A stretch of 64,000 nucleotides of DNA from Nitrospira sp. (GCA_029194665.1 JARFXO010000004.1:372001-436000), one strand, 5' to 3'. Shown: positions 42,796-53,825, counted from the first letter of the stretch. Translations and numbers: made by a program. The notes: generated by a model not told the origin, from the letters alone.

Positions 42796-44601
42796 TCACC
42801 GTTTGACAGGGGAATCCTGGGGTTTCTTACCTGCTTGCGCTTTTCCGTCGCCCACAGTGCCACCCGGTTCCGGCCACTGAGTAATCACGATTTCCATTCG
42901 CCGGTTCCTACTCCGACCATTTTCAGTATCATTCGTCGCGATAGGCTTGCTATCTGCGTACCCCACTGCTTTGATTCGGTCGGCCCCTAGCCCGCCGCTG
43001 ACCAGTACCTGAACGGCATGGTCGGCCCTGGTCCGAGAGAGTTCGGCATTATCCCGAAAGCCTTTCCGAGGGTCGTTCCGGAGCGGCTGGTTATCGGTGT
43101 GCCCGGCTACCTCTATGTTCTGGTAACGGAATCCATGCAAGACGACGCCGATCCGCTCAAGCAGCGAGGCGCCTCCGATGGTGACCGTCGCGTCACCTGG
43201 GGGGAATAACTCACCGGCTGCCAATGCGAGGGTCAATCTATTTCCCCGCTGCTTCAAGGCAGCACTGCCCTTCCTGAGTTCGGGCTGTAATAGGTTCGCA
43301 AGGCTTTCGCTTACTTTGCCGAGCTCGCTATTCGATAGGAATGCTTCCCCATCATCTGCGACCTCAGAGTCTGGTCCGAGCAGGTTGGTCAAGGAGAGAT
43401 TGTGATCGATAGGTAGCAGCGCAAGCGAGGGAGGTTCTTCTTGAGCGGAAGGTGGCGTGGTTTGTTTGGACGAATTGAGCTCAAGCTCCGCCAGCAATTG
43501 CTTTGTGCGCACAAGTTCCGCGTCTTTTGCCGTGAGTTGAGGGTTGAGATCCGCCAGCTTTTGCGAGGCTTGTTTGAGGTCCTCCTTGACCTGTGCCAGT
43601 TCTTGGTCTTTCTTCGCCGTCTGCTGTTCCGCTTCGGCGGTGCGGCGCTTGGCCTGGGCCAGTTCCAGTTCTTTTCCCGCTATCTGCTGTTCCGCGTCGG
43701 TGACACGACGTTTGACCTGCGTCAGCTCTTGCTCTTTCCCCACCGTCTGTTGTTCGGCTTCGGTGACACGGCGCTTGGCCTGCGTCAAATCCTGCTCTTT
43801 TCCCGCCATCTGCTGGTCCACTTCAGCGGCGCGGCGTTTGGTCTGGGCCAGTTCATGCTCTTTCTCTGCCATCTGCAGTTCGGTTTCAGTGACACGGCGC
43901 TTAGCCTGAGCCAGTTCTAGTTCTTTCCCGACTATCTGCTGTTCCGCGTCGGTGACACGGCGCTTGGCCTGTGCCAGTTCCTGCTCTTTTCCCGCCATCT
44001 GTTGTTCAACTTCGGTGACACGGTGTTTCGCCTGCGCCAGCTCTTGCTCTTTCCTCGCCGGCTGTTGTTCGGTCTCAGCGCCTCGGGCCTTCGCCTGCGC
44101 CGGTTCTTGTTCTTTCTTCGCCATCTGTTGTTCAACTTCGGCGACACGGCGCTTGGCCTGCGCCAGTTCTTGCTCTTTCTTCGCCATCTGTTGTTCAACT
44201 TCGGCGACACGGCGCTTGGCCTGCGCCAGTTCTTGCCCTTTTCCCGCCGATGCCAACTGTTGCTCGAGTTCGGCAATACGGCGCTTGGCCTTGTTGAACT
44301 CCTCAGTCTGGGACGCAAGATCATCTCGAAGCTGCTTGGAAGTCTCGTGGCCGCTGGTTATCAGGGCTGCGAGCTCATTATCCTTGGCATGCAGCTGGAG
44401 AACGAGCTCACCGATCCGTTGCTTGAGTTGTCGCTCGAGCTCATCGATTTTGTGCTTGGCCTGCTGGAGTTGATTCCTCGCCACACTCAATTCGTCTTGC
44501 GATGACTGGCCGTCTGAATCTTCAACAGCCATGGAAACCGGGATGTTTCCGCATAGCATGACGATGGAGACAAGAGCAAAGGCGGATAACCTGATGATCA
44601 T
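42796..44601 (-). CDS. OmpA-family protein with long heptad-repeat coiled coil
   Basis: 601 residues: signal peptide or anchor (SAFALVSIVMLCGNIPVSMA), then about 330 residues of coiled coil, a Ser/Thr/Pro linker, and a C-terminal OmpA-like peptidoglycan-binding domain (about 455-575: YQNIEVAGHTDNQPL, NAELSRTRADHAVQVLV, IKAVGYADSKPIATND, GRSRNRRMEIVI). The peptidoglycan-contacting Asp and Arg residues are in place. Architecture is that of a periplasmic spacer anchored to the wall, like MotB/OmpA-type or TolR/Pal-like proteins, but without the MotB plug. The coil (residues 121-351) is made of 21-residue units; see the repeat entry. Confidence 0.85.
   Translation of the reverse strand: MIIRLSAFALVSIVMLCGNIPVSMAVEDSDGQSSQDELSVARNQLQQAKHKIDELERQLKQRIGELVLQLHAKDNELAALITSGHETSKQLRDDLASQTEEFNKAKRRIAELEQQLASAGKGQELAQAKRRVAEVEQQMAKKEQELAQAKRRVAEVEQQMAKKEQEPAQAKARGAETEQQPARKEQELAQAKHRVTEVEQQMAGKEQELAQAKRRVTDAEQQIVGKELELAQAKRRVTETELQMAEKEHELAQTKRRAAEVDQQMAGKEQDLTQAKRRVTEAEQQTVGKEQELTQVKRRVTDAEQQIAGKELELAQAKRRTAEAEQQTAKKDQELAQVKEDLKQASQKLADLNPQLTAKDAELVRTKQLLAELELNSSKQTTPPSAQEEPPSLALLPIDHNLSLTNLLGPDSEVADDGEAFLSNSELGKVSESLANLLQPELRKGSAALKQRGNRLTLALAAGELFPPGDATVTIGGASLLERIGVVLHGFRYQNIEVAGHTDNQPLRNDPRKGFRDNAELSRTRADHAVQVLVSGGLGADRIKAVGYADSKPIATNDTENGRSRNRRMEIVITQWPEPGGTVGDGKAQAGKKPQDSPVKR
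43549..44241 (-). repeat. 63-bp tandem coding repeat, about 11 units
   Basis: Each 63-base unit encodes 21 residues, consensus KEQELAQAKRRVAEVEQQMA plus one (K, R, G or E), that is three exact heptads. Units 1 and 2 are almost identical at DNA level, middle units differ more, and the last decays to KDQELAQVKEDLKQASQKLA. Such an array can lengthen or shorten by slippage while the coiled coil stays in register. Confidence 0.9.
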
Positions 44602-45109: not shown

Positions 45110-46135
45110 ATGACGGTTCGCCCTCTTCCTCACGCATTCATTGTCTTCGCAGCATTGGTCTCAGCAGGGATGAGCCCTTCGGAGGCAGCCGACCAACCGC
45201 AACAAGTGAGAGCAGCGTGCGAGAAAGGCACTGCAACAGCATGCAACTCCCTCGGGTTGTTGTCTCTGAAAGGGGAGGGGGTGAAGCAAGATGACACTCG
45301 AGCTGCAGCCCTTTTCAGGAAAGCCTGTGACGGCGGGGATGCGGGTGGTTGCTCCAATCTTGGCGTGATGTATGCCGAGGGGATCGGGGTTCCACAGGAC
45401 GACGTTCAAGCCGCTGCCTTCTCTCGGAAAGCCTGTGACGGTGGGAATATGAAGGGCTGCTTCAATCTTGGCGTGATGTATGCTGAGGGGACCGGGGTTC
45501 AACAGGACGACCTTGAGGCCATCGACTTCTATAGGCAAGCCTGTGATGGGGGGCATATGAAGGGTTGCTACAACCTTGGCGTGATCTATGCTGAGGGGAT
45601 CGGAGTCCCACAGGACGACGCTCAAGCCGTTGCTTTCTCTCGGAAAGCCTGTGACGGTGGGAATGCGAGGGGCTGCTACAACCTTGGCGTGATGTATGCC
45701 GAAGGGGCTGGGGTCCCTCAGGATGACGTTCAAGCAACTGATTTCTATAGGAAGGCCTGTGACGGCGGGAATCCGAGGGGCTGCTACAACCTTGGCGTGA
45801 TGTACACTGAGGTCCAGCAGGACAACTTTCAAGCCGCCGACTTCTATCGAAAAGCCTGTGACGGTGGAAATGCGAGGGGTTGCTCCAATCTCGGTCTGAT
45901 GTATGCTCAGGGGACCGGGATCAAGCAGGACGACATTCGAGCCATCCACCTCTACAGAAAGGCCTGTGACGCTGGGGATGCGAAGGGCTGTATCCATCTC
46001 GGCATGGTCTATCAAGTTGGAAGGGGCATCAAATCGGACGATACTGAAGCACTGAAGTATTACGGGAAAGCCTGCGATCTCAGGGAGCCAAAAGGCTGCT
46101 CTCATTACGCAAAGTTGAAGACGGGTAGACGGTGA
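45110..46135 (+). CDS. Secreted Sel1/Hcp-like repeat protein with paired cysteines
   Basis: 341 residues: signal peptide (FIVFAALVSAGMSPSEA, cleavage near 26) and about eight Sel1-like units of 36 residues, consensus GVMYAEGIGVPQDDVQAAAF then SRKACDGGNMKGCFNL. Each unit carries two Cys eight residues apart (ACDGGNMKGC), as in the Helicobacter cysteine-rich proteins where they form a disulfide across each helix pair. One unit (near 45815) lacks four residues in the loop (YTEVQQDN). RBS GGAGG seven bases upstream. Probably a periplasmic or secreted protein-interaction scaffold; the beta-lactamase activity claimed for some Hcp proteins should not be assumed. Confidence 0.88.
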   Translation: MTVRPLPHAFIVFAALVSAGMSPSEAADQPQQVRAACEKGTATACNSLGLLSLKGEGVKQDDTRAAALFRKACDGGDAGGCSNLGVMYAEGIGVPQDDVQAAAFSRKACDGGNMKGCFNLGVMYAEGTGVQQDDLEAIDFYRQACDGGHMKGCYNLGVIYAEGIGVPQDDAQAVAFSRKACDGGNARGCYNLGVMYAEGAGVPQDDVQATDFYRKACDGGNPRGCYNLGVMYTEVQQDNFQAADFYRKACDGGNARGCSNLGLMYAQGTGIKQDDIRAIHLYRKACDAGDAKGCIHLGMVYQVGRGIKSDDTEALKYYGKACDLREPKGCSHYAKLKTGRR

Positions 46136-46644
46136 GCTGGTCTGTGCTCAAGACCATCATGAGTTCATAAAGCAGAACAGAGGCAGAGAAAAACAGAGGG
46201 TCAGCGGCAGTAAAAAAGAGCGCTAAATTCCTATCAAGCCATCCGAATTTCTTCCCACCGGCCCTGTTCGATTGCGTCAATCAGAGCCTAGCGCTTTTTA
46301 ACAGAGCTTCTTGGCCACACGTGAGGAGGGTTACTCCTTTGTCCCCGTTGAGGCCCTGTTCCTCCATCCTGCTTATTGACCATGAGCGGCACTTGCGGTT
46401 GTCCGCTCGAGCACGACGAGGAACTGAACCGCTCAGCAGCCTCTCGTGCTGACTACTCCCCCGGAGAAGAGTAGGCAAGCGTGGCCAGGTCCCTTTCCAG
46501 TCTGGACAACGCCGGAAGGAAGAGAGCCGTTCTCAATAAGGGCCGACTGACCTACTCTGGTTCGGTACGGTATGGTGTAGCAATTGAAGGAGGCTGCCGC
46601 CTTTCTGTTTCGACACAGGGCACATGACGGCAGAGAGAGGACAC
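46136..46644. other. Intergenic region, no gene supported
   Basis: About 500 bases after the Sel1-repeat gene. Short frames on both strands lack RBS or family resemblance. No repeat or RNA gene recognised. Confidence 0.4.
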
Positions 46645-47295
46645 ATGGATAATGACGCAGCCTACGGGGTGTGGTGGCTCGTCCTCATTAATTCCCTGTT
46701 CTTTATTCTTTTTGCGCTGAGCTTCACGCGTCCTCGGACCGGACGTGATTGGCGATCCCTTGGAGTCTTCTCCGCGTTTATCGTGGCCCTATTTGCGGAG
46801 ATGTATGGGTTCCCCCTGAGCTTGTATCTGCTTTCGGGGTGGCTGGCGAACCACTATCCGGAGGTCGATCCGTTTGCTCACGACACCGGCCATTTCTGGC
46901 ATGTCTTGCTCGGCATCCCTGGCCCCGCGCACTCTGATCCAGTGCATATTCTCAGCGAGGTGCTGGTTTTCATAGGGCTGATCCTGCTGGCGGTGTCCTG
47001 GCGCGTCTTGTATCGGGCGCAGCGCGAGCAGACCCTGGCCACAAGTGGAGCCTATGCCTTGGTCAGGCATCCGCAGTATGCCGCCTTCATCATCATTATG
47101 CTGGGTTTTCTTCTCCAGTGGCCGACCTTTCCGACGCTGGTCATGTTCCCTGTGCTCGTGGGGATGTATGTCCTGCTTGCGCACGAAGAGGAAGCAGAGG
47201 CTCGTGCGCAATTTGGCGAGGCCTATGAGCAGTATGCGGCAGTGACCCCGGCCTTTGTTCCTTCATGGAAGCGGGTACGAGGACCCGAAAGCTGA
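46645..47295 (+). CDS. Isoprenylcysteine carboxyl methyltransferase-like membrane protein
   Basis: 216 residues from ATG 46645 (GAGAGGA upstream; an ATG seven codons earlier lacks a site). Four or five membrane segments: WWLVLINSLFFILFALSF, SLGVFSAFIVALFAEMYGF, a third at HILSEVLVFIGLILLAVSW, and IIIMLGFLLQWPTFPTLVMF. The signature of the ICMT/PEMT-like family is clear: TSGAYALVRHPQYAAFI and the C-terminal EEEAEARAQFGEAYEQYAA. These methyltransferases use SAM at the membrane; bacterial members mostly have unknown substrates (quinone-like or lipid acceptors). No operon partner. Confidence 0.82.
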   Translation: MDNDAAYGVWWLVLINSLFFILFALSFTRPRTGRDWRSLGVFSAFIVALFAEMYGFPLSLYLLSGWLANHYPEVDPFAHDTGHFWHVLLGIPGPAHSDPVHILSEVLVFIGLILLAVSWRVLYRAQREQTLATSGAYALVRHPQYAAFIIIMLGFLLQWPTFPTLVMFPVLVGMYVLLAHEEEAEARAQFGEAYEQYAAVTPAFVPSWKRVRGPES

Positions 47296-47959: not shown

Positions 47960-49570
47960 ATGTCAGGGAAAAATATCGTGTTGTGTTCAGATGGAACAGG
48001 CAACACCGCCATCAAAGCGCGGGGGACCAACGTCTTCAAACTGTACGAAGCGGTTGATATCCAGGGTCATAAGTACGACCAGACCTTGAGGCCGCAAGTG
48101 GCATTTTATGATGACGGAGTCGGCACGTCGCGGCTGGCTCCGGTCAAGTTGATCGGCGGCGCCTTCGGCTATGGGTTTCGCAGGAACGTCAAAGAACTCT
48201 ACATGGAATTGATTCATGTCTACGAGCCGGGCGACCACATCTTCCTCTTTGGGTTCAGTCGGGGAGCCTATACGGTCAGGGCTCTCTCGGGGCTCATCCA
48301 GTACTGCGGCATTTTGGATGTGGGGAAAGTCAGCCATGCGGCACTCAAGCATTGCGTGAACAAATGCTGGACGGCGTTTCGGCGCGAGGCGTTCCAGAGG
48401 GTGACGGAAAGCGAGCGGCGGAAGAATCAGCCGTCGCCCGACAAGGTCAAGCAAGACCGAGCGCGACGTGAAGCGTGCGGCGCGATCATCCACGATGAAC
48501 ATGCGCCAGATGGGGCTGTGACCATAGATTTTGTGGGAGTCTGGGATACGGTCGGCGCAGTCGGGATGCCGTTTGAGGAGCTACGCGATCTGTTCAACTG
48601 GATCTATCCCATGCGGTTTTCTGAATTGACTCCCAGCAGCCGCATCATCCGTGCCTGCCACGCCTTATCGATCGACGACGATCGTCGGACTTTTCACCCG
48701 GAATTGTGGAATGAAAAGGACATACCTGCTGCTCAGGTTGATCAGGTATGGTTCGCGGGTGTGCACTCCAACGTGGGAGGCGGCTACGTGAAGCACGGCA
48801 TGTCTCTGGTGGCTTTGGATTGGATGATGGCCGAGGCTGAGCTCTGCGGGCTACGTTTTATCAAGGCGGACCGCGAGTACGTCCACACACACCAAGACGT
48901 GCATGACGAGCTCTATGATGCCCGTGCTGGCTTAGGCGCGTACTATCGCTGGGAGCCGCGTGACATCGTGAAACTCTGTCGCGATCACCATATGGGTTTG
49001 CCGAAGATCCATGTCAGTTTGTTTGAACGGATTGCCAACGGCACGGGGTGCTATGCTCCCATCAATCTTCCCGTTCAGTGTGAGGTGGTCTGTACAAATG
49101 AGGAACAGTCGTGGCCTTCGGACCGGATTCTGTGGACGATTGAGCGTGAGATTGGGCGTGGTGAAGAGACAGGCATGAAGCCGGCAGGGAATGAGTCTCT
49201 GCTGGAACGCATGACCGGAACCATCAAGAGCGGAAAGATGTCCTACTACTGCTTCGTGGCGGCCTCGATCCCTGCCGTCGGTTGGTGGTATGCCTTGCCG
49301 CCCTTTCCACAGGCTGCGGAGACCGTAGCTCAATGGTGTCCCTATCCCAATCTCGTGATCGGCGGCATCTACGCCTGCCTTGGTGGGCTGGTCTGGTGGT
49401 GGTCCGATCGGGTCGACCGACGGATGGACGTTGTGGCCCAGAAGCATTGGCAACCGCGTCGTGAAGCGCTACGGAACATCTTCACGGAGGCTCGAACGCG
49501 ACGGGAATTGGAGCAAGCCGAGGGGGGAACATCGACAGAACGAGAGCCAGGTAGTTTCGCATTGAGGTAG
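47960..49570 (+). CDS. DUF2235 alpha/beta-hydrolase with C-terminal membrane segments
   Basis: 536 residues. The N-terminal 370 residues follow DUF2235: KNIVLCSDGTGNTAIKARGT, VAFYDDGVGTSRLAPVKL, IFLFGFSRGAYTVRALSGLI with the GxSxGA nucleophile elbow, VDFVGVWDTVGAVGMP-like FVGVWDTVGA, and WFAGVHSNVGGGYVKHG with the catalytic His region. DUF2235 includes T6SS phospholipase effectors (Tle-type) and uncharacterised cytoplasmic hydrolases. Here two hydrophobic segments near 425-445 and 462-478 (SYYCFVAASIPAVGWWYAL, IGGIYACLGGLVWWWSD) suggest membrane attachment. No T6SS genes are near, so a housekeeping lipid or ester hydrolase is likelier than an effector. Confidence 0.85.
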   Translation: MSGKNIVLCSDGTGNTAIKARGTNVFKLYEAVDIQGHKYDQTLRPQVAFYDDGVGTSRLAPVKLIGGAFGYGFRRNVKELYMELIHVYEPGDHIFLFGFSRGAYTVRALSGLIQYCGILDVGKVSHAALKHCVNKCWTAFRREAFQRVTESERRKNQPSPDKVKQDRARREACGAIIHDEHAPDGAVTIDFVGVWDTVGAVGMPFEELRDLFNWIYPMRFSELTPSSRIIRACHALSIDDDRRTFHPELWNEKDIPAAQVDQVWFAGVHSNVGGGYVKHGMSLVALDWMMAEAELCGLRFIKADREYVHTHQDVHDELYDARAGLGAYYRWEPRDIVKLCRDHHMGLPKIHVSLFERIANGTGCYAPINLPVQCEVVCTNEEQSWPSDRILWTIEREIGRGEETGMKPAGNESLLERMTGTIKSGKMSYYCFVAASIPAVGWWYALPPFPQAAETVAQWCPYPNLVIGGIYACLGGLVWWWSDRVDRRMDVVAQKHWQPRREALRNIFTEARTRRELEQAEGGTSTEREPGSFALR

Positions 49571-50160
49571 GATGATGGGTCTCTGTGCATCATTCCTCGG
49601 GTGTCACAGAATAAAACTCGGATAACAAGCCCTCGCCAATCGGGTTGGGAATGGGCAATAGGTGGGCAAGAGGACAAGAGGAGAAATAGATCTGCAATCG
49701 AGTGAGGAGCGGGGTTCAACAACGACCGCCATCTGTGATTACTCCTTTTCCAAGCCGATGATTCGCTTCCGTCCGCTTGATATCCATTTCGATACACCTT
49801 TTTATCTGCTGAGGATGCGGCTGTGTAGATCTATCGGGCAGGCGGCTTAAAATTACGGAGTGAGACTTTGGACTTGCATCGTGGTACCCGAAGCGCGTAG
49901 CATGCCCTCTTCGCAGTAGTAGGATTCATAGTTGACGATGTCGGGTGCTATCTAATGCGGTCTTCCCTTTTCTCTTTGATGTGGGTCGGTCTTTGTCCGC
50001 GGGGTCCTACCTAGAGTGTCGGACGTTTGTCCTCTCTTGCAAAAAATGCGCGTGTGGATGCAAGGAACCTATTGGTCCAGGTTATTTTCTTCTCTGACTA
50101 AGCAAGCCCATCCGAATGGCTGGACAAGGTTCACCCTTTAATCAAGTTAGGAGACACATC
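49571..50160. other. Intergenic region before the surface-modification trio
   Basis: About 590 bases. No ORF with RBS, no repeat. It should include the promoter of the three-gene operon beginning at 50161; no clear -35/-10 pair is proposed. Confidence 0.4.
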
Positions 50161-50385
50161 ATGCTGAAATGGTCGACAGTTGGAGCGTCTGGTAGCCTGT
50201 TCATTCTTCTCAGCAGCATCTTCGTCTCTGATGCTCATGCGTACATTGATCCCGGAAGCGGGAGTGCCTTACTCCAGCTCATTCTCGGAGGTATCGCCGG
50301 AATCGGGGTTGTTGCCAAGTTGTACTGGGATCGAGTCAAAACCAAGTATCACTCCTGGTTCGGTCGAAAGAACGAATCGTCATGA
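50161..50385 (+). CDS. Small exported/membrane protein with IDPGSGS motif
   Basis: 74 residues from ATG 50161 (TAGGAGA eight bases upstream). N-terminal signal-like segment SGSLFILLSSIFVSDAHAYI with a likely cleavage after AHA, then YIDPGSGSALLQLILGGIAG, a second hydrophobic segment, and a basic end (KLYWDRVKTKYHSWFGRK). Small proteins with the AYIDPGxGS motif are commonly encoded next to surface-polysaccharide or sulfatase genes. Its stop overlaps the methyltransferase start (ATGA). Role unknown; perhaps a partner of the membrane hydrolase in this operon. Confidence 0.75.
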   Translation: MLKWSTVGASGSLFILLSSIFVSDAHAYIDPGSGSALLQLILGGIAGIGVVAKLYWDRVKTKYHSWFGRKNESS

Positions 50386-51845
50386 ATAAGTCGACGATGG
50401 CCGACACTCGACCTACCAGGGTAGGTGGGTCTTTTAGAGATCCTAGTGGGTACGTCTATCGCCATGGTGACCGCATTTTTCGTACCGTAACCAATGCGGG
50501 GAAAGAGCAATTCGACTTCGTTCACCAGTCCGGACTCTTCAAGTTGCTCATGCGAGAGGGACATCTCTTGCCTTTCGAGCTCATTGAGCGGCCTCTTTTG
50601 TCGGATGGAGATGACGAATCAATATCCTATGTGCTTGAGGTGCCGAAACTCACGTTTATATCGTTTCCTTACGAATGGCCGTTTCCAGCTCTCAAGGCCG
50701 CGGCCCTGTTGCATCTAGATATTCAGCTGACTGCTCTTGACCACGGCGTGACACTGTCTGATGCCTCTGCATACAATATCCAGTTCATTGGCGCCACTCC
50801 TACATTTATTGACCATCTCTCATTTCGGAGGTACGAACAGGGCGAGATGTGGGCGGGGCATCGGCAGTTTTGCGAGCAGTTTCTGAGTCCGCTCTTGTTG
50901 CGGTCGCTGTTCGGCATTTTCCACAACGCCTGGTATCGTGGGAGTCTGGAAGGGATTCCGGTCGTTGAATTGAGCCGGTTACTAACCTGGCGGCACTACC
51001 TCAAGAAGAATTTGTTAACGCATATTGTTTTCCAGTCCTGGCTGCAACGATCGACTGAGTCCACTTTACAGGGGCAGGGTCTCGACAAAAATGCCGTGAG
51101 AGAGGGGGGCCTCCCCCGGCAAGCGTATCGCAAGCTGCTCACCGGCCTGCGCGATTGGATCAGAAGCATTGAGCCTCTTCAAACAAGCAAATCGACTTGG
51201 CAGGACTATGCCAAGGATAACTCGTATCAGGCCGCCGAATCGGGTGAGAAAGTGGCCTTCGTGCGCGACTTTGCTGCGCAGCATCGCCCTCGGCAGTTGT
51301 GGGATTTTGGTTGTAATGCTGGAGTCTTTGCCAAGGCGGCCCTAGAAGGCGGCGCCGAGTACGTGGTCGGGTTCGATTTCGATCAAGGTGCACTCGACGG
51401 TTGCTACGCCGAGGCACGTAAAGATCAGCTTCCTATCCAATCAATTGTGATGGACATGGCCAATGTAAGCCCAGACCAAGGGTGGCTGGGAATCGAACGA
51501 GAAGGGCTTGGTGCCCGTCGATCCGCGGATGCCCTAGTGGCTCTCGCGGTAGTGCATCACCTGGCTATTTCACGGAACATTCCTTTTGGGGAGCTCTTGG
51601 ATTGGCTAGTGGACCTTGCTCCTTGTGGGATCATCGAATTTGTCCCAAAGACAGATCCTATGGTGAAGAAACTCCTGGCGCTTCGGGCGGATATCTTTGA
51701 AGCCTACACGTGGGGATTTTTCACGGATCGCATCGGCCAAAAAGCACGGATCGACCGTGTTCTACAAGTCGGGCAACACGGCCGCACCCTCGTGAGTTAC
51801 ATCCGGCACGGATATGAGGGAATCCGCCGAGAGCATCCCCTGTGA
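50382..51845 (+). CDS. Two-domain SAM-dependent methyltransferase (NoeA-like)
   Basis: 487 residues. The N-terminal 270 residues (GSFRDPSGYVYRHGDRIFRT, PYEWPFPALKAAALLHLDIQ, GVTLSDASAYNIQFIGATPT) resemble a kinase-fold-like domain seen in NoeA-like proteins; the DASAYNIQF stretch recalls a catalytic loop. The C-terminal Rossmann methyltransferase begins near residue 300: RQLWDFGCNAGVFAKAALEG (SAM glycine loop), YVVGFDFDQGALDG, and DALVALAVVHHLAISRNIPF. Between overlapping neighbours it is probably a glycan or lipid methyltransferase for a surface polymer. Substrate unknown. Confidence 0.8.
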   Translation: MNKSTMADTRPTRVGGSFRDPSGYVYRHGDRIFRTVTNAGKEQFDFVHQSGLFKLLMREGHLLPFELIERPLLSDGDDESISYVLEVPKLTFISFPYEWPFPALKAAALLHLDIQLTALDHGVTLSDASAYNIQFIGATPTFIDHLSFRRYEQGEMWAGHRQFCEQFLSPLLLRSLFGIFHNAWYRGSLEGIPVVELSRLLTWRHYLKKNLLTHIVFQSWLQRSTESTLQGQGLDKNAVREGGLPRQAYRKLLTGLRDWIRSIEPLQTSKSTWQDYAKDNSYQAAESGEKVAFVRDFAAQHRPRQLWDFGCNAGVFAKAALEGGAEYVVGFDFDQGALDGCYAEARKDQLPIQSIVMDMANVSPDQGWLGIEREGLGARRSADALVALAVVHHLAISRNIPFGELLDWLVDLAPCGIIEFVPKTDPMVKKLLALRADIFEAYTWGFFTDRIGQKARIDRVLQVGQHGRTLVSYIRHGYEGIRREHPL

Positions 51846-53542
51846 ATCCGGAGCAGTCCTCGGAGACGTTCTGGCTCGACCACAGAGTATTCCTCGCGAT
51901 TACCTTCCCGTTCCTCACGTTGCTCAGTCCCTTTGCGGTCTACTTGACGAAACGGGACTATCCCCTGATGAGTCCCGAAATCTTGCTCATCCTTGCGGGC
52001 ATGTTGTGTGTGTCGGGGGTGATTGGGTTGTTCCGCTGTGCCGGCGGAAGACTCGTATACGCAATGAGTGTGAGCGGCCTTCTCGCTGTTGCTGCCGACT
52101 ATCAATTTGAGTGGGTTGCACAGAGTCGCACCATTACGCTTCTTGTTATTTTTGGAATACTCGTGGTTCTGATGCGACGTTTCGAAAAGACCATGACCTT
52201 GGCAGTAACGGCGTTTCTCTGTGTGTTTGTGATTTCGACCTTCCTGCGCAATGGATTCGGGGACGCGTCCGATCCTGTCTTGGCTGCGCCACGCATGGAT
52301 GCGACGACAGATGGTCCACCCCGGCTCATCCATCTCATCCTGGACGAACATCTTGGTGTCGAGGGAATCCCCGACGATACCGACTATGCCAGGGAGCTGA
52401 AGCGCAAGATCAAACAATTCTATCAACGTTACGGTTTTGAGCTGTACGGTGGAGCATACAGTCATTACCTCGACACGGAAGACTCAATCCCGAATCTGGT
52501 GAATTTCTCAGCGCAAAGCGTCAACATGGTATTTCTTACGGGTGAGCGCCCTCCATACGCCTTGCAGCAGAACCGCTATTTTCAATTGCTGAAAAGTATG
52601 GGGTATCGGATCCATGTTATACACGGGGACTATGTAGATTTTTGTTCGAGCCCAGATGCGCAGCCGCACTCCTGCGCTAAATTTGGATGGTTTACCTTGA
52701 GTAATGTGGCGAAGCTGGACATCCCCTTACTTACGAAGACGACGACGGTGCTGGCTAGCTTCGTGGCCAGTTACACTCGATATCAAGCTATACTGGATCT
52801 CTATGAACAGCGGGCACGTCCGCTCTTGCTTTCGCGAGGGGTGGTCGGTCCGGCCATTGATCGTGAATCTCTCTGGACAAAGCGACGCCTTCACCCATTT
52901 TCGGTGAATGCGCTGGTGGCGATGGACGCGGTATCCGACAAGATTCAGCAACTGACGCCGGGGCACATGTTGTTTGTGCATCTCATGCTTCCGCATTTCC
53001 CCTACGTGTATCGGGAGGATTGTTCGCCGCGGGCGATTCCGGAATCAATGGATGACCTGGAGGGCGTTCCTCTGGAGTTGCGCACTTCCGAAGACAGAAG
53101 GATTCGTTACGACCAATATTTGAGGCAGATGGGGTGCCTCTATGTCAGGTTGGATGAATTGTTCCAGATGATGCAATCGTCCGGAATATTTGATGATTCA
53201 ATCGTTATGGTTCATGGGGATCACGGTGGACGCTTGGGCCTCCGACAACCGATAGCGAAGGAGCAAAGCCAACTGACGCCGATCGATTATAGAGATGGGC
53301 TATCCACGCTGTTTGCCGTCAAGATCCCTGGGGAGCCGGGCGGCTATGATCCTTCATTGCATGCCATCGACGAACTCCTGGTTGAGACTCTCGGCAGAGC
53401 CTTCGGCAACGTTCCTCCACTCTCAGTTCCACGGCCAGAGCCGTTTGCTTATCTAAGGGACAAGTATCGAGGAGAACAGTTGCTCCTGGACATGCCATGG
53501 GATCCGTTGAACGCACTTGATAGGCCTACCGCTGTTCAATAG
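51842..53542 (+). CDS. Membrane-anchored sulfatase / phosphoglycerol-transferase-like hydrolase
   Basis: 566 residues, GTG start overlapping the previous stop. Five predicted membrane spans in residues 15-140 (FLAITFPFLTLLSPFAVYLT, EILLILAGMLCVSGVIGLF and others), then an alkaline-phosphatase-fold domain outside: RLIHLILDEHLGVEG with the first metal Asp near 165, and DDSIVMVHGDHGGRLGLRQP with metal-binding Asp and His near 460. Layout is that of LtaS/OpgB-type enzymes that transfer or remove phospho-groups on surface polymers. The usual sulfatase CxPxR motif is not present, so a phosphotransferase is likelier than a sulfatase. Works presumably with the two coupled genes before it. Confidence 0.8.
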   Translation: MNPEQSSETFWLDHRVFLAITFPFLTLLSPFAVYLTKRDYPLMSPEILLILAGMLCVSGVIGLFRCAGGRLVYAMSVSGLLAVAADYQFEWVAQSRTITLLVIFGILVVLMRRFEKTMTLAVTAFLCVFVISTFLRNGFGDASDPVLAAPRMDATTDGPPRLIHLILDEHLGVEGIPDDTDYARELKRKIKQFYQRYGFELYGGAYSHYLDTEDSIPNLVNFSAQSVNMVFLTGERPPYALQQNRYFQLLKSMGYRIHVIHGDYVDFCSSPDAQPHSCAKFGWFTLSNVAKLDIPLLTKTTTVLASFVASYTRYQAILDLYEQRARPLLLSRGVVGPAIDRESLWTKRRLHPFSVNALVAMDAVSDKIQQLTPGHMLFVHLMLPHFPYVYREDCSPRAIPESMDDLEGVPLELRTSEDRRIRYDQYLRQMGCLYVRLDELFQMMQSSGIFDDSIVMVHGDHGGRLGLRQPIAKEQSQLTPIDYRDGLSTLFAVKIPGEPGGYDPSLHAIDELLVETLGRAFGNVPPLSVPRPEPFAYLRDKYRGEQLLLDMPWDPLNALDRPTAVQ

Positions 53543-53571
53543 CAGAGACTTCACTCCTGAAACCACGTGAA

Positions 53572-53825
53572 GAGGTCTTTGAAATCGGCTGCTCCAATGG
53601 CCGTATCACCGAATATCTGTCCGCAAAAGCCGGTTGTTCAACTTTGGGGTGATTACTCGGACGCTGCTATCACCCAGGCTCAACACCTTACCCGATCTGA
53701 AGGACAAGCTGACCATTCAATGTGTGGATTTGCTTGCCGTCGAGAATCCCGGCGAAAGGTGCGACACCATCGTCGCGGTGGATTGCATTTATTTCATGGG
53801 CCACTATCTTCATAAGGTGTGGTGA
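53572..53825 (+). pseudogene. Remnant of a SAM-dependent methyltransferase
   Basis: Coding sense is spread over frames: EVFEIGCSNGRITEYLSAKA (SAM glycine loop), then GDYSDAAITQAQHLTR in a second frame, then DKLTIQCVDLLAVENPGERC and DTIVAVDCIYFMGHYLHKVW ending at a stop. Together these follow motifs I, II and IV of a class I methyltransferase, with at least two frame changes and no start or C-terminal half. It lies just after the surface-glycan trio, so it may once have belonged to that module. Confidence 0.65.

Follow-up and report, generated by a model that had tools for sequence, protein, structure and literature searches.

A 64,000-nucleotide stretch of the 4.8 Mb genome of a Nitrospira species (GCA_029194665.1, JARFXO010000004.1:372001-436000), hereafter the window, carries three overlapping plus-strand genes between positions 50161 and 53542. 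The first (50161..50385) encodes a small membrane protein of 74 amino acids (aa) and is preceded, ~8 nt 5' of its ATG, by an AGGAG (50149..50153) which reads as a Shine-Dalgarno-like sequence. Its product comprises a signal-like helix with a predicted cleavage site DAHA^Y, the motif YIDPGSGS (50242-50265), one transmembrane helix and a basic C-terminal tail. The start of gene 2 (50382..51845, 487 aa) overlaps the stop of the small gene as ATGA, and the start of gene 3 (51842..53542, 566 aa) overlaps the stop of gene 2 as GTGA. An earlier sequence-only reading of the window had described these genes as a trio with exactly such overlaps, and both the overlaps and the coordinates were borne out.

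Genes 2 and 3 as homologues of noeA and noeB

When compared with plasmid records by tblastn, gene 2 matched 65 of them, nearly all from Sinorhizobium or Rhizobium, with about 46% identity to Sinorhizobium NoeA over 97% of the protein, and the annotated records designate this product NoeA. Alignment and tree analysis showed that the homology to the NoeA family is full-length and spans both domains of gene 2, whose closest named relative, 86% identical, comes from a Nitrospira metagenome-assembled genome (MAG). Gene 3 matched NoeB, the product of the gene following noeA (about 25% identity over 75%, E 1e-25 to 3e-29), and residues T212, H380, H385 and D460 are common to the two. In the tree, the rhizobial NoeA sequences form a shallow branch within non-nod homologues. 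A phage origin of the module was rejected, as NoeA had no match in phage records or PHROGs.

As far as the work of Ardourel et al. (1995) is related in PMC9758233, PMC4053727 and PMC9048898, noeA and noeB were recognised as host-range nodulation genes in 1995 and belong, in Sinorhizobium meliloti, to the nod-box n5 operon nodL-noeA-noeB. The window shares with this operon the order of the NoeA and NoeB homologues, but no nodL adjoins the window module, NoeB is only about 25% identical, and the genome is not that of a rhizobium. A search of S. meliloti 1021 with an approximate nod-box consensus gave no match, which is not informative. A 2022 survey of Legionella described a kinase-methyltransferase in the NoeA homologue Lani_1194 and, in the adjacent Lani_1195, a NoeB homologue with an alkaline-phosphatase fold (PMC9758233), so that Legionella anisa Lani_1193-1195 includes the same pair of enzymes as the window. 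The statement of the sequence-only reading that no function had been described for the trio is thus incorrect for genes 2 and 3, as they are homologues of long-known nodulation genes whose pairing was described in that survey. Our literature search found no assigned chemistry for noeA or noeB, and modification of the Nod factor is given there as a hypothesis only.

The small membrane protein and its linkage to noeA

The tiny gene preceding noeA is an unrecognised third member of the NoeA-NoeB module. We assembled 80 noeA loci, one species each, from about 18 phyla (Nitrospirota, Pseudomonadota, Acidobacteriota, Planctomycetota, Chloroflexota, Armatimonadota, Patescibacteria, Zixibacteria, WOR-3, Myxococcota, Bacteroidota and others), 78 of which had room for the small gene. 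Profile searches located the small protein directly upstream of noeA, in the same orientation, in 74 of these 78 testable loci and beside noeA in divergent orientation in one more (L079), giving a total adjacency of 75/78, and did not find it in the remaining three (L054, L080 and L088). Across the about 876 kb of locus DNA the profile had no other match. The same plan (MPIIMSVVGFLILSIVPAHA^YLDPGTGSMLVQGLIGALAIGG...) was found in a 71-aa open reading frame (ORF) of S. meliloti which lies between nodL and noeA, directly 5' of noeA, and overlaps the noeA start; it is unnamed there too, this type of ORF being listed as 'hypothetical protein' in annotated rhizobial plasmids, and the small protein is likewise present on the noeA plasmids of PLSDB. 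The Legionella survey recorded Lani_1193 in 65% of neighbourhoods and did not state its nature (PMC9758233); it may be the tiny protein. By comparison, our DNA-level search found the tiny protein in 96% of loci and an alkaline-phosphatase-fold partner adjacent in 75% (83% within the locus).

The conserved stretch of the small protein is Y[IL]DPG[ST]GS, mostly preceded by A-x-A at the predicted cleavage site and followed by a hydrophobic helix and a basic tail. Counted from the predicted cleavage site, Tyr 1, Asp 3 and Gln 12 were unvarying in 73/73 sequences, of which Tyr and Asp belonged to the pattern used for aligning the 73 proteins and Gln was not required, and Ser 8 was found in 71/73. 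The S/T positions are not fully conserved, as shown by the motif variants DPSAGG and DAASAS. No Pfam or NCBIfam model covers the protein, 28 tested members yielding only scattered weak single-member matches, and a literature search for the motif DPGTGS returned no relevant paper.

Among 59 related genomes, NoeA, the small protein and the NoeB-like gene all occurred side by side in the same 11 and were all lacking in the other 48, a coincidence with a probability of 1/C(59,11) = 3.6e-12 if the genomes were independent, which they are not. In the tree, the 11 NoeA carriers fall in at least four separate lineages of the order, accompanied in each case by partners of the same kinds, and the set was therefore acquired more than once. 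Phylum-wide, in 245 genomes, the small protein was present in 16 of the 17 with a clear NoeA. Of the 80 loci, 48 had an alkaline-phosphatase-fold gene directly downstream of noeA, 12 had one directly upstream and six had one elsewhere in the locus. This variability of partners, with the NoeB-like gene downstream, upstream or absent, might suggest that the three genes are chance neighbours sharing an operon and no common function. Such an explanation is contradicted by the identical 11-of-59 distribution, by the 75/78 adjacency across about 18 phyla and by the repeated acquisition of noeA together with its partners, and we consider it very improbable indeed. The proposal of the sequence-only reading that the three genes form one module is supported by their co-occurrence, the families being far from rarely together in the survey.

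Eight Nitrospirota genomes contained a match to the small protein without a clear NoeA. In three of the loci (L140, L141 and L143) it directly preceded a sulfatase-type or phosphodiesterase-type alkaline-phosphatase-fold gene, in L142 and L143 it lay near a carbamoyltransferase, and in L139 near glycosyltransferases and an alkaline-phosphatase-fold gene. Two of the eight were weak YVGPGLG variants near sulfotransferase-type genes: at L145:2294-2506 YVGPGLG stands in place of YLDPGTGS and the gene adjoins a sulfotransferase, and at L146:860-1081 (minus strand) such a relative lies near an arylsulfotransferase gene. These are possibly part of a wider family of such peptides. At L144:5673-6983, a 437-aa CDP-glycerol glycerophosphotransferase-like protein begins with a YLDPGSGS membrane segment, and a methyltransferase gene follows the fusion ORF. 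This arrangement is known from one genome only, no second full-length case being found in the 245 phylum genomes or in plasmids. As the fusion places the enzyme C-terminal, on the basic side of the helix, the enzyme is expected on the cytoplasmic side according to the positive-inside rule. The tiny Y[IL]DPG[ST]GS protein might be a general, swappable membrane subunit of surface-decorating enzymes, an idea which we hold to be rather doubtful; if true, it would define an unrecognised adaptor class, hidden even within the textbook nodL-noeA-noeB operon.

Predicted folds and conserved residues of the two enzymes

The N-terminal domain of gene 2 (about residues 1-270, 50382..51191) was modelled with AlphaFold2 as residues 1-292, using 83 sequences (mean predicted local distance difference test score, pLDDT, 89); six plasmid-record rows were left out of the structure predictions. 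The top Foldseek/PDB matches of the model were protein kinases, with Z about 10 over 200 residues, whereas a profile of the domain matched no PDB sequence. R34, E98, D127, N132 and D144 were invariant in 80/80 NoeA sequences, and model and conservation together indicate a two-lobe kinase fold with the catalytic D-x4-N (D127-x4-N132, 50760-50777) and the DFG-type Asp. The kinase-like N-terminal domain postulated by the sequence-only reading was thereby recovered as a modelled kinase fold with invariant catalytic D, N and D.

The C-terminal part (about residues 284-487, 51231..51842) was assigned by profile matches and conservation to the class I S-adenosylmethionine (SAM)-dependent methyltransferases. 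The best PDB match of the NoeA profile was WbdD (E 7e-4 over 125 profile positions), which was also the first PDB match of the window's own methyltransferase domain (E 0.003). H392-H393 of gene 2 (51555-51560), invariant in 80/80 NoeA sequences, align with H132-H133 of WbdD in the alignment to 4uw0. In WbdD, phosphorylation of the terminal mannose of the O9a O-antigen is followed by methylation of the added phosphate; H132 and H133 of the enzyme lie together at the methyl group, and the exchanges H132A and H133A abolish methylation but not phosphorylation (PMC3482155). The His-His match in the aligned sequences is the strongest clue to the chemistry of NoeA, pointing to a phosphate being added first and a methyl group second. 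The WbdD of E. coli O9a resembles NoeA in combining a kinase and a class I methyltransferase in one protein and in the His-His pair at its phosphate-methylating site. It differs in its order methyltransferase-kinase-coiled-coil, which is reversed in NoeA, and in having its own C-terminal coiled coil where the NoeA module has a separate membrane peptide. Membership of NoeA in the WbdD family was rejected on the grounds of the reversed domain order and of a kinase without sequence similarity, and only the notion that NoeA may work like WbdD was retained. A distant NoeA of the same phylum (L147:1010-3767), in which the kinase residues and the His-His pair are retained, overlaps the preceding Wzt-type ABC-transporter gene with a Wzt_C domain, with acetyltransferase and glycosyltransferase genes nearby, a context that looks like that of WbdD.

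The model of gene 3 (pLDDT 80) consists of five membrane-sized helices (residues 7-138, 51860..52255; hydropathy gives four clear peaks) and an alkaline-phosphatase fold (residues 158-530, 52313..53431) with near-invariant D168, T212, H380, H385 and D460. The fold scored Z about 20-22 against sulfatases, LtaS and others, and MCR-1 and PbgA were among the Foldseek matches. Within the family, T212 (codon 52475-52477) was conserved in 55/55, H380 in 55/55, H385 in 54/55 and D460 in 52/52 sequences, T212 being assigned as the nucleophile by its position at the start of helix 212-220. A formylglycine sulfatase was rejected, as the C/S-x-P/A-x-R motif is missing and an invariant Thr is found instead. 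Like the lipoteichoic acid (LTA) synthase LtaS and EptA/MCR, gene 3 combines membrane helices and an alkaline-phosphatase fold with Thr at the nucleophile position and HxxxPHxP and DHG motifs. It differs from them in its low sequence identity, a profile match to LtaS being confined to the region around the DHG end and the curated NCBIfam LtaS equivalog scoring 18 bits against a cutoff of 970. The model agrees with an outward-facing phosphotransferase or phosphodiesterase that has a Thr nucleophile; of the two, the analogy with LtaS and EptA/MCR favours a transferase. The sequence-only reading had named a five-span membrane hydrolase without the sulfatase motif; the five helices, the fold and the missing motif stand, but a hydrolase is less likely than a phosphotransferase because the Thr is invariant.

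Outside the module, a decayed class I SAM methyltransferase fragment (about 53566..53815, plus strand) follows directly. It corresponds to the methyltransferase remnant seen in the sequence-only reading and consists of pieces of one gene in three broken frames, an intact 274-aa relative of which was found at L138:1134-1958 in a congener without the trio. On the 5' side, positions 47960-49570 encode a hydrolase of the type VI secretion system (T6SS) Tle1-like/DUF2235 type (PF09994, E 3e-71), and a PF09994-matching gene also occurs among the second neighbours of the 80 noeA loci. Further upstream lie an ICMT/PEMT-like integral membrane methyltransferase (46624-47295) and, as read from the translations only, a Sel1-like repeat protein with many near-identical repeats (45110-46135) and a minus-strand gene (42796-44601) for a protein in which a long AQAKRRVAEVEQQ-type repeat region is combined with an OmpA-like C-terminus.

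A putative surface-decoration module

The whole is best explained by a NoeA-type surface-decoration module, a model built on predicted folds, residue conservation, gene linkage and homology which we put forward tentatively, its chances of being right falling a little short of even. NoeA would be placed on the inside of the cytoplasmic membrane. There, its kinase domain would phosphorylate a glycan or glycolipid bound to the membrane, at one of the hydroxyls, and its methyltransferase domain would turn the added phosphate into methyl-phosphate, as WbdD does on the E. coli O9a O-antigen. The tiny protein, with both ends inside and the Y[IL]DPG[ST]GS stretch outside, would be the membrane partner of NoeA, replacing the C-terminal coiled-coil part of WbdD. 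NoeB, at the outer face of the same membrane, would act on a phospho-group of the exported product, either transferring or removing it, by means of a Thr nucleophile as in LTA synthase or EptA/MCR. By analogy with WbdD, methyl-phosphate is the probable product, if by no wide measure; a membrane-partner role for the small protein lies just on the probable side; and action of NoeB on the same product as NoeA is conceivable but doubtful. The sequence-only reading had suggested modification of a surface polymer, of which the decoration of a surface molecule remains the likely role, whereas the target need not be a polymer and could be a glycolipid or lipid.

Several observations weigh against this model. 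At the position of the kinase beta-3 Lys, NoeA has the invariant R34, as Lani_1194 likewise has Arg in place of this Lys (PMC9758233). The WbdD match is weak (E 1e-3) and confined to the methyltransferase, in a protein of reversed domain order. No alkaline-phosphatase-fold gene was found within the locus in 13 of the 80 loci, and the distant NoeA of L147 lacks the small protein. Around the 80 loci there is no conserved glycan-gene cluster; since the second neighbours look ordinary and no pathway recurs, the module appears self-contained. Finally, conservation in the small protein is strongest in the motif predicted to lie outside, for which a simple cytoplasmic anchor would have no use.

This last point bears on the alternative that the tiny protein is itself a substrate or a released signal, being modified by NoeA (and NoeB) or cleaved to expose a fixed Tyr N-terminus outside. 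Its conservation peaks just after the predicted cleavage site, where A-x-A precedes Tyr 1, its layout of motif, membrane helix and basic tail resembles sorting signals, there is no cargo, and the contexts of the module are varied and share no recurring glycan cluster. On the other hand, the S/T positions vary, the L144 homologue is the N-terminus of an enzyme, NoeA is predicted in the cytoplasm and the motif outside, and the WbdD-like features favour a phospho-sugar, so that we regard a substrate role as decidedly unlikely.

The spread of the module narrows the choice of target. As contigs assigned to Chloroflexota and Patescibacteria carry it, a placement resting on possibly imperfect MAG assignments, neither the Nod factor nor lipopolysaccharide (LPS) is likely to be the general substrate. 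This, together with the solitary position of the module and the resemblance of NoeB, with its five helices and Thr nucleophile, to LtaS and EptA, would agree with a lipid target: on the inner leaflet, NoeA would produce a donor lipid carrying phosphate or methyl-phosphate, and NoeB would move its headgroup to acceptors outside, as EptA and LtaS do with phospholipid donors. Some loci, however, carry the small protein and NoeA without an adjacent NoeB, and we know of no lipid kinase that combines this fold with a methyltransferase; we consider a lipid target rather unlikely and keep the decoration of a membrane-bound glycan or glycolipid as our preferred explanation.

NoeA and NoeB were already known as nodulation genes, and the NoeA family as kinase-methyltransferases since 2022. 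New in this study are the linkage of the small protein to noeA, including its position between nodL and noeA in S. meliloti, the alignment of the His-His pair with WbdD, the kinase-fold model of NoeA and the invariant Thr of NoeB. Its wide occurrence, in about 18 phyla, indicates that the module is older and general and that the nodulation genes were recruited from it. The His-His match to WbdD provides a definite, measurable prediction, namely a methyl-phosphate (+93.98 Da). The nodL-noeA-noeB operon should be regarded as having a fourth member, the tiny gene in front of noeA, and the results obtained with noeA mutants may need to be reread accordingly.

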